From positions 310,001-374,000 of the forward strand of contig NZ_SSXX01000001.1 of assembly GCF_009469615.1 (NCBI RefSeq): a stretch of 64,000 nucleotides of DNA. The letters run 5' to 3'. Below the pieces are notes generated by a model. The model saw only the letters and a program-made list of their open reading frames with translations. It had not been told where the DNA came from and did no database searches. Positions 45,926 through 49,093 of this stretch are shown here, piece by piece. The first letter of the stretch is position 1; each line of letters begins with the position of its first letter. The DNA comes from Dechloromonas sp. H13. Its GTDB lineage: Bacteria > Pseudomonadota > Gammaproteobacteria > Burkholderiales > Rhodocyclaceae. The position numbers and the translations under genes are program-made.

Positions 45926-46531
45926 TCACGGCGTTTCCCCGAACCAGTTGGCGCCGAGGCAGGCGCGCAACGCCAGGCGCGCGCGGTGCAACTGGACCCA
46001 GCAGTTGTTGGCGGTGATGGCCAGCGTCGCGCAGATTTCGTCAGTCTCGAAGCCGAGGACCTCGCGCATCGTGAAGATCCGGGCCGCGGCCTCCGGCAGA
46101 CGGTAAAGGCAGGCTTCGAAGACCTCCCAGAAGCGCTTGTTTTCCGTCGCCTGTTCCGGCGTCGGCCAGTCCGCCGGGCGGGTGTCCTCGGCCCAGTGCT
46201 CGCGCCGGTCGAAATAGGCGTTCAAATCGGCATCATTTTCGCCGTCGACCGCAACCGCCCTGTCGCGCACCCGCCGGCGCAGGGTATCGACGATCTTGTG
46301 CTTGAGGATCGCCAGCACCCAGGTCCGCAGGGAGGCCCGCGAGGCAAAGCCCGACTGCCCCTGCAGGGCCGCCGCCAGCGCCTCCTGAACGGCATCCTCG
46401 GCCTGCGCCCGGTCGCGCAACTGCAGTTCGGCGAAGCGGACCATGTCGCGGCGCAGGCCGGTGAGGAACTCGGGATCGCGCAGCGGGTCTTGGCTCATGT
46501 CGGGTATCTGCGATGCGGGTTTTTCGATCAT
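45926..46531 (-). CDS. ECF-type RNA polymerase sigma factor
   Basis: 201 residues. Region 2 (about 20-90: RDMVRFAELQLRDRAQAEDA, SLRTWVLAILKHKIVDTLRR) and region 4 (about 140-190: RIFTMREVLGFETDEICATL, NNCWVQLHRARLALRACL). ATG 46531 lacks a clear ribosome site; ATG 46498 (MSQDPLRD) is an alternative. It is divergent from the zinc-finger/HvfA operon, 84 bases apart. Sigma factors of this type commonly control hvf/bufferin operons, so that is the likely target. Repeat copy R13 lies in its region 2-4 linker. Confidence 0.9.
   Translation of the reverse strand: MIEKPASQIPDMSQDPLRDPEFLTGLRRDMVRFAELQLRDRAQAEDAVQEALAAALQGQSGFASRASLRTWVLAILKHKIVDTLRRRVRDRAVAVDGENDADLNAYFDRREHWAEDTRPADWPTPEQATENKRFWEVFEACLYRLPEAAARIFTMREVLGFETDEICATLAITANNCWVQLHRARLALRACLGANWFGETP
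46220..46255 (-). repeat. USS-like bipartite repeat, copy R13 (inside sigma gene)
   Basis: Core at 46244-46253 on the minus strand preceded by GGT, then GGCGAAAATGATGCC and GATTTGAAC. Both AT tracts are present. It encodes VAVDGENDAD, in the variable linker. Confidence 0.7.
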
Positions 46532-46615
46532 ACTGCAAAAAAATTGTAAGGTTTTTCATGCGCCGCCGACCAATCGGACAGGCATCGCGCCATGACGCCG
46601 GAAACAGGAACGGAA
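46532..46615 (+). promoter_or_regulatory. Divergent promoter region, sigma factor / zinc-finger gene
   Basis: 84 bases. TGTAAGG (46545-46551) and CGACC (46567-46571) are 15 bases apart and could be an ECF -35/-10 pair for the zf-hvfABC operon. The assignment is tentative because the consensus of this sigma factor is unknown to me. Confidence 0.35.
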
Positions 46616-46795
46616 ATGATCAGTTGCAAGGAAGCCACCCGCCTCGCCTCGCTACAGCTCGAACGCCAGCTCACGCTGCGTGAACGTCTGGCGCTGCGGA
46701 TGCATCTGGCGATCTGCGTCGGCTGCCGAAGGATGGAAAGGCAGTTCCGTTTCCTGCGCCAGGCAGCCGGTGCCTGGATGAGCCTCAAGGATTGA
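46616..46795 (+). CDS. Zinc-finger (zf-HC2 type) anti-sigma candidate
   Basis: 59 residues from ATG 46616 (CAGGAACGGAA upstream). It carries Cys4, His30, Cys34 and Cys37 in HLAICVGC, the HxxxCxxC of zinc-binding anti-sigma domains. There is no membrane helix, so a soluble ChrR-like redox or metal-sensitive anti-sigma factor is plausible. It is divergent from the ECF sigma gene and only 29 bases before hvfA. Size is at the lower limit of the family. Confidence 0.7.
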   Translation: MISCKEATRLASLQLERQLTLRERLALRMHLAICVGCRRMERQFRFLRQAAGAWMSLKD

Positions 46796-46824
46796 CACCC
46801 ACCGCAACCTCAACGGAGAAAACC

Positions 46825-47136
46825 ATGAAAAAGCAAAACGTCGTGACCCTGGCCATCGGCTCCGCCTTTGCCGCCGGCGCCCTGACCCCGCTGGCGCACG
46901 CCGCCGGCGACAACCCCTTCGGCGCAACCCGCCTGACGGCCGGCTATCAGCTGGCCCAGGCCGACGCCAAGCAGGCGGACGGCAAGTGCGGCGCCGACAA
47001 GAAGGCGGCGGAAGCCAAGTGTGGGGCGGACAAGAAAGCCGCCGAAGCGAAGGTTGCCGCCGACAAAAAGGCGGGCGAGGCGAAATGCGGGGCCAGCAAG
47101 AAGGGCGCCGAGGCGGCGTGCGGTGCCAAGAAGTAA
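46825..47136 (+). CDS. hvfA: HvfA-like RiPP precursor with 11-residue Cys repeats
   Basis: Secreted precursor peptide, 103 residues from ATG 46825 (CGGAGAA upstream). Signal peptide about 1-26 (cut at AHA-AG), then DNPFGATRLTAGYQLAQA, typical of HvfA/bufferin leaders. The rest is a Lys/Ala-rich tract of 11-residue repeats of the form EAKCGADKKAA with Cys at 55, 66, 88 and 99. The same position 77 in the third repeat is Val. In the family an MNIO enzyme turns Cys into oxazolone-thioamide or thiooxazole groups that bind copper. The operon partners follow. The repeat AKCGADKK differs from the classical EGKCG. Confidence 0.85.
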   Translation: MKKQNVVTLAIGSAFAAGALTPLAHAAGDNPFGATRLTAGYQLAQADAKQADGKCGADKKAAEAKCGADKKAAEAKVAADKKAGEAKCGASKKGAEAACGAKK

Positions 47137-47152
47137 GCCGTTGCCGAAGGTT

Positions 47153-47185
47153 GGCGCCGGCTTCCCGGCAAGGGACGCCGGCGCC
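47153..47185 (+). promoter_or_regulatory. Strong hairpin between hvfA and hvfB
   Basis: GGCGCCGGC (47153-47161) pairs with GCCGGCGCC (47177-47185), and the inner TCCC/GGGA extends the stem to about 13 bp around loop GGCAA. There is no T run. It could stabilise the hvfA message or attenuate read-through, giving more precursor than enzyme. Confidence 0.6.
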
Positions 47186-47256
47186 CACGGACACCACGAC
47201 TTGACGATGCGTTCCCCCATGCCGTACCCGCCCGTCGCGCCGCGCGGAGCGGGCTG

Positions 47257-48096
47257 ATGCACGCCCGTCCCGCCAGCGGCGCCGGCCTCGGTTTCCGCCG
47301 TGAACTGATCGAGCCGCTCAAGGCCGGCGTGCCGGCGGCGATCCGCTTTTTCGAACTGGCCCCGGAGAACTGGGCCGGCATCGGCGGCAGGGCGGCCCGC
47401 GACCTGCGGCTGTTCACCGAGCGCTATCCCTTCGTCTGCCACGGCCTGTCGCTGTCGCTCGGCGGCCCCGCCCCGCTCGACGAAAACCTGCTGCGACAGA
47501 TCAGGCGCTTCATGGCCGAGCACGGCATCGCCCTGTACACCGAACACCTCGCATGGTGCGCCGACGACGGCCATCTCTATGACCTGCTGCCGATCCCGCT
47601 CTCCGAAAAAGCCCTCAAATGGACGGTCGACCGCATCGGGCGGGCGCAGGACGCGCTCGGCATGCGCATCGGCATCGAAAACGCCTCGTACTACGTCGCC
47701 CCGCCGGGTGCCGAGATGGACGAGAGCGAATTCATCGCCGCCGTCGTGCGCGAAGCCGACTGCCTGCTCCATCTCGACGTGAACAACATCTATGTCAACA
47801 GCCGCAACTTCGGCTTCGACCCGCTGGCATTCCTGGCCGCGCTGCCGCTCGAACGCACCTGCTATATCCATGTCGCCGGCCATTACGTGGAACCTGACGG
47901 CCTGCTGATCGACACCCACGGCGCCACCGTCATCGACCCCGTGTGGTCCCTGCTCGCCGCCTCCTACGCGCGCGTCGGCCCGGTGCCGACCTGCCTCGAA
48001 CGCGATTTCAACATCCCCGACCTGGCGCAGCTGGGCGCCGAAGTCGGGATCATCGCCGGCCTGCAGGCGGCCGCCGGCCGACGCGAGGCGGCCTGA
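47257..48096 (+). CDS. hvfB: MNIO-family oxidative enzyme HvfB/BufB (DUF692)
   Basis: 279 residues of the multinuclear non-heme iron oxidase family that modifies Cys in partner peptides. Blocks: GLGFRRELIEPL, FFELAPENWAG, VCHGLSLSLGGPAPLD, YTEHLAWC, IGIENASYYV, LLHLDVNNIYVNSRNFGFD and IHVAGHY, which provide the Glu, His and Asp metal ligands. Its stop overlaps hvfC by one base (TGATG). It lies 120 bases after the precursor gene with a hairpin between. Substrate assignment to the adjacent precursor is inference from gene order. Confidence 0.93.
   Translation: MHARPASGAGLGFRRELIEPLKAGVPAAIRFFELAPENWAGIGGRAARDLRLFTERYPFVCHGLSLSLGGPAPLDENLLRQIRRFMAEHGIALYTEHLAWCADDGHLYDLLPIPLSEKALKWTVDRIGRAQDALGMRIGIENASYYVAPPGAEMDESEFIAAVVREADCLLHLDVNNIYVNSRNFGFDPLAFLAALPLERTCYIHVAGHYVEPDGLLIDTHGATVIDPVWSLLAASYARVGPVPTCLERDFNIPDLAQLGAEVGIIAGLQAAAGRREAA
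47602..47637 (-). repeat. USS-like bipartite repeat, copy R14 (inside hvfB)
   Basis: Core at 47626-47635 on the minus strand, followed by CGTCCATTTGAGGGC and TTTTTCGG. Both AT tracts are present. Confidence 0.6.
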
Positions 48097-48839
48097 TGCA
48101 GCCGCCGGATTTCCAGGCCTTCCAGCGCGCATTCGCCCGCCACATCCGCGACCCGCGGCGCGCGCCGCGCCCGGCCGGCGTCCCGGCGCGCCGGATGGCG
48201 GTCTACAACGAACTGCTTTTCGCCAACATCACCGGCGTTCTCGACGCCTGCTTCCCGGTCGCCCGCGCCACCCTCGGCGACGCACGCTGGCGGCGCCTGA
48301 ACCGGGCCTTCTACCGCGACTGGCCGTCGCATACCCCCTGGTTCCGCGAAATTCCGCGCGAATTCGTCCACTACCTGAACGCGGCCACGATCCGCCAGCC
48401 GCTGCCGGCCTGGCTGCGCGAACTGGCGCATTACGAATGGACCGAACTGGCGGTCGACCTCATGGCCTGCCCGCCTCCCCGCCACGAGCCGGCCGGCGAC
48501 CTGATGCACGAGCCCGTCGTGCTCAACCCGGCGCTCTTCAACCTGCAGTACGCCTGGCCGGTGCACCGCATCGGGCCGGGCTACCGGCCGCGCAAGCCGC
48601 GCCCGACCTGCCTCGTCGTCTTCCGCGATGCGGCCGAGGAAGTCCGCTTCGTCGAAACCAGCCCGGTCACCTGCCGCCTGCTGGCGCTGATGGTGGAACA
48701 ACCGGCCAGCGGCACCGCCGTCTGCCGACGCATCGCCGAGGAGTTGCAGCACCCGGCGCCGACGCAGTTGATGGACTTCGCCGCCCCGCTGCTCGACGAC
48801 CTGCGTCACCAGGGCATCGTCCTCGGCACCGCCCGCTGA
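48096..48839 (+). CDS. hvfC: HvfC/BufC partner protein (DUF2063)
   Basis: 247 residues from ATG 48096, overlapping the hvfB stop. The N-terminal DUF2063 region (MQPPDFQAFQRAFARHIRD, RRMAVYNELLFANITGVLDACFPVARATLG) is clear; the family is annotated as putative DNA-binding, but in HvfBC pairs it binds the leader of the precursor and hands it to HvfB. The C-terminal half has the usual YAWPVHRI and FRDAAEEVRF segments. No DoxX-type HvfD gene follows. Confidence 0.92.
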   Translation: MQPPDFQAFQRAFARHIRDPRRAPRPAGVPARRMAVYNELLFANITGVLDACFPVARATLGDARWRRLNRAFYRDWPSHTPWFREIPREFVHYLNAATIRQPLPAWLRELAHYEWTELAVDLMACPPPRHEPAGDLMHEPVVLNPALFNLQYAWPVHRIGPGYRPRKPRPTCLVVFRDAAEEVRFVETSPVTCRLLALMVEQPASGTAVCRRIAEELQHPAPTQLMDFAAPLLDDLRHQGIVLGTAR

Positions 48840-48946: not shown

Positions 48947-49093
48947 ATGGAGAAAACGAAGAGCAAGGCGAAGCGCTTTCTGAAGCTGGACCGCCTCGGC
49001 ATGCGCATCGCCCACGCCCAGAAATATTTCACCCGGCGCCGCAAGGAGCGCGCCGAACGGGCCTTCGAACGGAGCATGCTGCAGGCGACGTAA
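48947..49093 (+). CDS. 48-residue very basic small protein
   Basis: ATG 48947 has AAAGGAGA upstream, a strong ribosome site. The product is 48 residues, with many Lys and Arg (MEKTKSKAKRFLKLDRLG; KYFTRRRKERAERAFERS), predicted helical and without a membrane helix. I do not recognise it; a nucleic-acid or ribosome partner is possible. It follows hvfC by 107 bases and has its own terminator, so it may be a separate small gene. Confidence 0.55.
   Translation: MEKTKSKAKRFLKLDRLGMRIAHAQKYFTRRRKERAERAFERSMLQAT

Follow-up and report, generated by a model that had tools for sequence, protein, structure and literature searches.

What does an hvfABC operon make when its precursor carries only lone Cys sites and no doxX gene, the gene for HvfX, goes with it? 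The question is raised by a locus in the window, which is the whole 64,000-nucleotide stretch of Dechloromonas sp. H13 analyzed here (contig NZ_SSXX01000001.1, positions 310,001 to 374,000). From a divergent promoter, an extracytoplasmic function (ECF) sigma factor gene runs one way, and the genes for an anti-sigma factor, the precursor HvfA, and the proteins HvfB and HvfC run the other. A sequence-only reading had called 46616–48839 an HvfABC-type operon for a ribosomally synthesized and post-translationally modified peptide (RiPP), and Pfam and NCBIfam scores bear out its genes, order and coordinates (Table 1). Our own reading, at a probability of about 0.8, is a captophorin operon under an oxidant-responsive ECF/anti-sigma switch, in which the pairless form of the precursor is tied to the loss of HvfX.

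The Cys-rich precursor gene lies immediately upstream of the MNIO and PME1 genes, the arrangement by which captophorins are recognized. Family scores and gene order give good support for an HvfA/oxazolin-type captophorin operon (5-thiooxazole) under an ECF/zinc-anti-sigma pair. It would be a known operon type, here with lone rather than paired reactive Cys. No DoxX gene follows the operon, as the sequence-only reading had said, and scans of the complete genome with PF07681, a 12-row DoxX profile and the HvfX model NF050144 revealed none. This absence, only touched on in that reading, proved to be the informative part.

HvfX genes and cysteine pairs

The pattern was first noticed while gene order was being tabulated, and more loci were then fetched from order- and class-wide searches. 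HvfC at E 1e-40 was found in 68 of 399 genomes in the first wider search (60 regions fetched) and in 118 of 369 in the second (80 fetched). From 257 loci, one without an HvfB call and 26 with a duplicate HvfB were dropped. The loss of the precursor from relatives that keep hvfBC, named beforehand as evidence against the operon assignment, is not what is seen: 205 of the 230 distinct HvfB loci have a callable precursor. The 25 others (L056 and L058, frameshifted or cut, among them) and nine loci with less than 1.5 kb after hvfC were also dropped, leaving 196. The first precursor call missed L124, L139 and L146; the second call recovered L139 and L146, whereas L124, which is cut, stayed out. doxX was called with our own DoxX profile, and a pair is defined as two Cys five residues apart.

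When the precursor adjoining hvfB is considered, doxX is present in one of 24 pairless loci and in 119 of 172 paired loci. The sole exception is L198, where a second precursor in tandem carries a KCGEGKCG pair; no such precursor is present in the other 23 pairless loci. With L198 counted as paired, doxX is seen in none of the 23 pairless loci, the host locus included, and in 120 of 173 paired loci; all 120 doxX loci are paired. The later-fetched set alone gives 0/9 for pairless versus 59/100 for paired loci (Fisher 5.9e-4), or 1/10 versus 58/99 (p 0.005) before the L198 correction. Among the 19 loci in the divergent order, all ten pairless ones are without doxX and five of the eight paired ones have it; the remaining locus has doxX and a frameshifted precursor. 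Exactly one pair next to hvfB is found in 48 of the 120 doxX loci, and 47 of these have four or more Cys. HvfX was never seen without a pair, and one pair stays even if the other sites are lone.

Eighteen genomes with a pairless precursor were checked at full length. HvfX (NF050144) is over the cut-off in four of them (G029, G168, G260, and G606) and not in the other 14; the match in G578 is sub-threshold at 40 bits. The DNA pattern for KCGE[AG]KCG is found in the same four genomes and in none of the 14, with zero control matches, so that all 18 are concordant. G029 has a second hvfA, with three pairs and its own promoter site upstream, and the HvfX gene comes immediately after it. The HvfX gene is beside the genome's other hvfC in G260 and near a tandem paired precursor in G168. 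In G606, it lies some 2.8 kb from a paired hvfA, the second in that genome, whose neighboring hvfB and hvfC frames look broken. The genomes of seven doxX-less paired loci (G003, G044, G038, G010, G011, G062, and G075) were also searched. Five have no DoxX-like gene anywhere, and G003 and G075 have one elsewhere in the genome.

Two of these clusters can be described separately. The paired hvfA and doxX operon on contig 14 of G029 (L318, minus strand) has its own ECF site and no adjoining hvfB/hvfC, and therefore would depend on hvfBC elsewhere in that genome. The second hvf cluster of G606, with truncated-looking hvfB/hvfC, is on contig 90 (L320).

Searches of the literature on DoxX together with HvfX, bufferins or MNIO, supplementary files and subscription papers aside, turned up no link between DoxX and Cys spacing; this includes the passages on DoxX in PMC12452194 and PMC13097082. 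The HvfX/pair rule was not found in print.

The precursor, its enzymes and the sigma switch

The precursor consists of a signal-like N-terminus (judged by eye), a NPFGATRLTAGYQLAQAD segment, and five 11-residue repeats. The period of 11 residues noted earlier is exact (Tandem Repeats Finder, TRF: period 33, 3.9 copies, 69% matches). Cys residues are at positions 55, 66, 88, and 99, and Val is at position 77, which leaves four Cys across the five repeats. The Lys-Cys motif of the HvfA family is recognized by NF050137, and no two Cys in the precursor are five residues apart. No coding motif KCGE[AG]KCG was found by a DNA pattern scan of the whole host genome, and no Pfam family, DUF2282 included, matches the precursor up to E 10. 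A whole-genome scan with the KCGExKCG model was blank even for the operon's own precursor and gave no match in any control genome.

Same-genus precursors align to that of the host at 68–78% identity; their sites are KCGEAKCGADKK pairs, lone AKCGADKK sites, or a mixture of the two. Relatives mix KCGE[AG]KCG pairs with lone sites 9–11 residues apart. Such a spacing occurs at least once in 106 of the 196 distinct loci; two or more successive 11-residue steps occur in ten of the 196, and runs of this spacing are also seen in other families (L092, L096, L198, L211, and others). AKCGA is already listed among common precursor motifs (PMC13097082). The 11-residue unit is thus a naturally occurring variant of a KCGEA-KCGADKK unit that lacks one of its halves. 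The idea of a distinct kind of peptide is weakened by these counts, and a new precursor class was rejected since both forms are found within one genus. The idea of a defined helix that presents its Cys on a single face was also dropped, as the AlphaFold2 model was uninformative (mean predicted local distance difference test score, pLDDT, 46.9).

Some other precursors show further forms. Cys residues four apart (KCGNICG and KCGTFCG) are found in L305 and L308, which represent two families and are both without doxX. The L203 precursor has an EF-hand-like stretch between lone KCG sites. At L056/L085 (Dechloromonas SSB2), hvfA is frameshifted in the assembly, either a sequencing error or a broken gene, and hvfB, hvfC and doxX are intact. 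Loci of the Azonexus hydrophilus type (L041, L043, L045, L049, L051, L053, L059, and L064) have a peroxiredoxin/AhpC-TSA-like gene, named by eye, between hvfA and hvfB.

Among solved structures, HvfB matches the MNIO 3BWW (E 4e-70) and HvfC the partner protein 3DEE (E 2.7e-16). The putative ligands D174, N176, N177, H205, H209, D219, H221, E248, and D250 are conserved in all 230 HvfB relatives, and H62, H97, E141, and N142 in 229 of them. Two Arg and a catalytic Asp-Phe are tied to Lys-Cys substrates (PMC13097082). HvfB has the corresponding R14, R15, D250, and F251; their equivalence with R15/R16/D249/F250 of FonB is by motif. A Phe equivalent to F251 is present in 214 of the 230 relatives. 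By these comparisons, the metal and specificity residues of HvfB are intact. Enzymes of this group are assigned 5-thiooxazole as their product, and the earlier oxazolone/thioamide structure of oxazolin has been revised (PMC13097082, PMC13419390), so that the oxazolone-thioamide chemistry first proposed for this locus is outdated. In a crude scan for HvfB columns that track the pairless state, no active-site position was found; the top columns are at the C-terminal end and are near-clade markers.

The gene first described as encoding a zinc finger does match zf-HC2 and is best read as an anti-sigma factor gene, because its residues C4, H30, C34, and C37 (recounted from the sequence) coincide exactly with reported positions of MseR. 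In MseR of Neisseria meningitidis, Cys at the same positions C4, C34, and C37 matter for anti-sigma activity (PMC2893595). A Cys4 plus Hx3Cx2C anti-sigma gene adjoining an ECF sigma gene, behind a promoter of known type, points to control of the SigE/MseR type. The two promoter elements are separated by 16 bases (TGTAAG-N16-CGACCAA). A relaxed form of this promoter lies 38–44 bases upstream in all 20 divergent loci, the window included, and the strict form in 17 of them; shuffle controls gave 0.015 and 0, respectively. One of the 20, L035, was added by hand, its sigma gene having been uncalled by the search. The relaxed form is seen in 38 of 64 hvfA-first loci. The predicted promoter is conserved among the divergent loci, and its elements resemble the meningococcal SigE motifs, GTMAGBWTT and CGTCTAAH (PMC2893595).

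Three matches to the strict pattern are found in the host genome, at 29, 42, and 57 bases before gene starts. The 42-base match precedes the anti-sigma ATG. The 29-base match precedes a gene for a periplasmic molybdoenzyme (PF00174), read by eye as msrP, next to an MsrQ-like gene also named by eye. The 57-base match precedes a secreted-type thioredoxin gene (PF00085) followed by a CcdA-like gene (by eye). The two predicted sister sites are located at L316 and L317 (host contigs 15 and 60). In 28 same-genus genomes, host included, there are 44 promoter sites versus 22 control matches. In the loci retrieved, many of the sites are before msrP-, thioredoxin/CcdA-, hvfA- or doxX-like genes, and others are before nothing recognized.

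In H. influenzae, msrAB is controlled by the ECF factor RpoE2 together with HrsE, an anti-sigma factor of 67 residues (PMC7907618). In N. meningitidis, a single operon, NMB2140–NMB2145, contains the genes for the sigma factor and MseR, one for DoxX, and three that were unknown at the time (PMC2893595). We take these three to be hvfABC, a reading supported by the identity of NGO1945 as the DUF2063 partner. A regulon link of this kind was already known for Neisseria and Haemophilus; the conserved promoter would link the peptide to a small periplasmic oxidation-repair regulon in free-living bacteria as well. The host of the present operon is a freshwater bacterium.

Table 1. Features of the hvf locus in the window.
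Feature	Position	Strand	Evidence
ECF sigma factor, SigE/RpoE2-like, divergent	45926..46531	-	NF008892 302 bits over 291; TIGR02943 268 over 162; PF04542 and PF08281
Predicted ECF promoter	46545..46573	+	-35 TGTAAG (46545-46550), -10 CGACCAA (46567-46573), 42 bases before anti-sigma ATG
Zinc-binding anti-sigma factor (ZAS type, MseR/HrsE-like), zf-HC2, 59 aa	46616..46795	+	PF13490 33.7 bits over 22.2; NF052368 68 over 50
HvfA-type captophorin precursor, 103 aa	46825..47136	+	NF050137 (KCGExKCG) 25.1 bits over 19.5; TRF
HvfB, MNIO/DUF692 maturase	47257..48096	+	NF003818 383 over 360; related to solved 3BWW
HvfC, DUF2063/RRE (RiPP recognition element) partner protein	48096..48839	+	NF050145 288 over 142; related to solved 3DEE

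The tight packing described earlier holds for hvfB and hvfC, which are joined by a TGATG overlap, and not for hvfA and hvfB, whose gap of 120 bases is looser than the rest of the operon. The divergent ECF sigma factor was also described correctly, with both family models over their cut-offs. An upstream ATG at 46592 is an alternative start for the anti-sigma gene and would give 67 aa. The host genome has one MNIO gene. By HvfB, the closest named relatives belong to Dechloromonas and Azonexus, at 84% and less. Downstream of hvfC, a basic frame of 48 codons (48947–49093, plus strand) has no family above the cut-off; it recurs near the hvf loci of several relatives at 60–96% identity.

Proposed role and competing explanations

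It can be proposed that hypochlorite or similar stress makes the anti-sigma factor release the sigma factor. HvfBC would then convert the Cys of the AKCGADKK sites to 5-thiooxazoles, and the exported peptide would bind Cu(I) in the periplasm, alongside the repair of oxidized Met and Cys. Copper binding by the host peptide is probable by analogy with its relatives. With a spacing of 11 residues, two neighbors could not form the compact two-thiolate site of KCGEGKCG, and therefore copper would be bound less tightly or shared by separate molecules.

To our knowledge, DoxX/HvfX is the only core member of captophorin clusters without a known task. The DoxX family includes thiosulfate:quinone oxidoreductase subunits, and HvfX has weak DoxD matches. 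From the distribution above, we infer that the paired site, with its two thiolates five residues apart, is where HvfX acts, and that HvfX serves no other site. More tentatively, and with somewhat less than even confidence, HvfX might be the dedicated partner of the paired thiooxazole site. Where HvfX is kept, at least one pair would be kept; where it is lost, selection for the pair would lapse and the precursor would drift to lone sites. Its task may be to use quinol electrons to open a disulfide between the two thiolates, or to deliver copper to the site or remove it. That the loss of HvfX came first and the drift after it is a guess. The sequence rule ties HvfX to one peptide feature, modified Cys five apart, and narrows the question of its function. 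The host locus and loci closely related to it offer natural systems that have neither HvfX nor pairs. Captophorins are among the most populous RiPP classes, and more than 24,000 MNIO-PME1 loci are on record (PMC13097082).

Several results weigh against a functional, HvfX-linked pairless captophorin. There are 53 paired loci without doxX, and therefore pairs do not need HvfX. Before the L198 correction, the set contained one exception, and independent pairs on the tree numbered 4.5 for, 0.1 against, and 3.3 undecided (median p 0.125). The host precursor fails the curated HvfA equivalog NF050188 (12.5 under 95); two paired same-genus precursors with KCGE[AG]KCG are likewise under this cut-off, at 50.6 and 61. 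The three promoter matches in the host genome compare with two for a control pattern, and only their placement favors them. In addition, lone sites could be poor substrates, because FonBC modified a two-repeat peptide, left a one-repeat peptide unmodified, and introduced a single modification into an AKCGA double repeat (PMC13097082). These results argue against ready modification of lone sites by FonBC itself, the host enzyme aside.

The locus might also be an ordinary captophorin operon in which the pair and doxX merely happen to be lost together, by common descent or because the system as a whole has relaxed. On the HvfB tree (IQ-TREE quick, LG+G4), there are only 12 changes of the pairless state and 35 of doxX, and most same-genus pairless loci are closely related. 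The test with independent pairs is weak even after the L198 correction (5.5 for, 0 against, and 3.5 undecided; median p 0.031). However, the Pagel test gives a likelihood ratio (LR) of 36.5 with p 2.3e-7 (LR 28.9 before the correction); its rates are at their bounds, and no direction is read from them. Simulations on the tree, done before the correction, reached 1/24 in 0 of 8000 runs and the value of the later set in 48 of 6000. Pairless loci are spread over Azonexus, Zoogloea, and members of other orders, and in the four genomes with both kinds HvfX is within a few kb of a paired precursor. We consider such a coincidence rather unlikely, and prefer the tie between pair loss and HvfX loss.

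The function of the product is a separate matter. A serious rival is that the product chiefly protects against hypochlorite as a sacrificial thiol or redox buffer, with copper secondary. The regulon defined by the promoter is one of periplasmic oxidation repair, and the homologous genes of Haemophilus influenzae, a DoxX gene and three neighbors (COG3767, COG3220, and DUF2063), require RpoE2 for induction by hypochlorous acid (HOCl) (PMC7907618). Yet fontiphorin and gonophorin were shown to bind copper (PMC13097082), and bufferins improve growth under copper stress (PMC12452194); on balance, we doubt that buffering is the main role. A decaying precursor copy, with one repeat Cys-less and lone sites no longer modified, would agree with V77 in place of Cys, with the FonBC result on single repeats, and with the L036 precursor, which also lost one site (KAAADKK). 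Against such decay are the open frame, the conserved leader-like NPFGATRLTAGYQLAQAD segment, the conserved promoter, and intact HvfB/HvfC, and several genera retain precursors that have lone sites only, with as many as six Cys. Decay is quite improbable.

Comparison with known systems

Oxazolin (hvfABCX) of Haemophilus influenzae and gonophorin of Neisseria share with the host locus a secreted HvfA-type precursor, the MNIO HvfB and HvfC, as well as an ECF sigma factor with a small zinc anti-sigma factor and a regulon containing methionine sulfoxide reductase. In contrast to them, the host precursor has lone AKCGADKK sites with four Cys and no EGKCG pair, HvfX is missing genome-wide, the sigma gene is divergent, and the anti-sigma gene is the first of the operon. 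The meningococcal SigE (RpoE)/MseR operon NMB2140–NMB2145 has the same gene set except for DoxX, the same C4, H30, C34, and C37 positions, and the same kind of promoter motif. There, one polycistron begins with doxX and ends with the sigma and anti-sigma genes, whereas the host sigma gene is divergent and doxX is absent.

Fontiphorin (FonABC) of Fontimonas thermophila is similar in its minimal precursor-MNIO-partner cluster and in the two Arg and Asp-Phe of HvfB, although FonA has EGKCG 5-mer repeats. Bufferins (bufABC, with DUF2282 or 6/12-Cys precursors) likewise combine a secreted precursor, an MNIO, and a DUF2063 partner, and are linked to copper stress. The host locus differs from them in a precursor without a DUF2282 match and in an HvfB that scores below the BufB model NF050167 (251 under 310).

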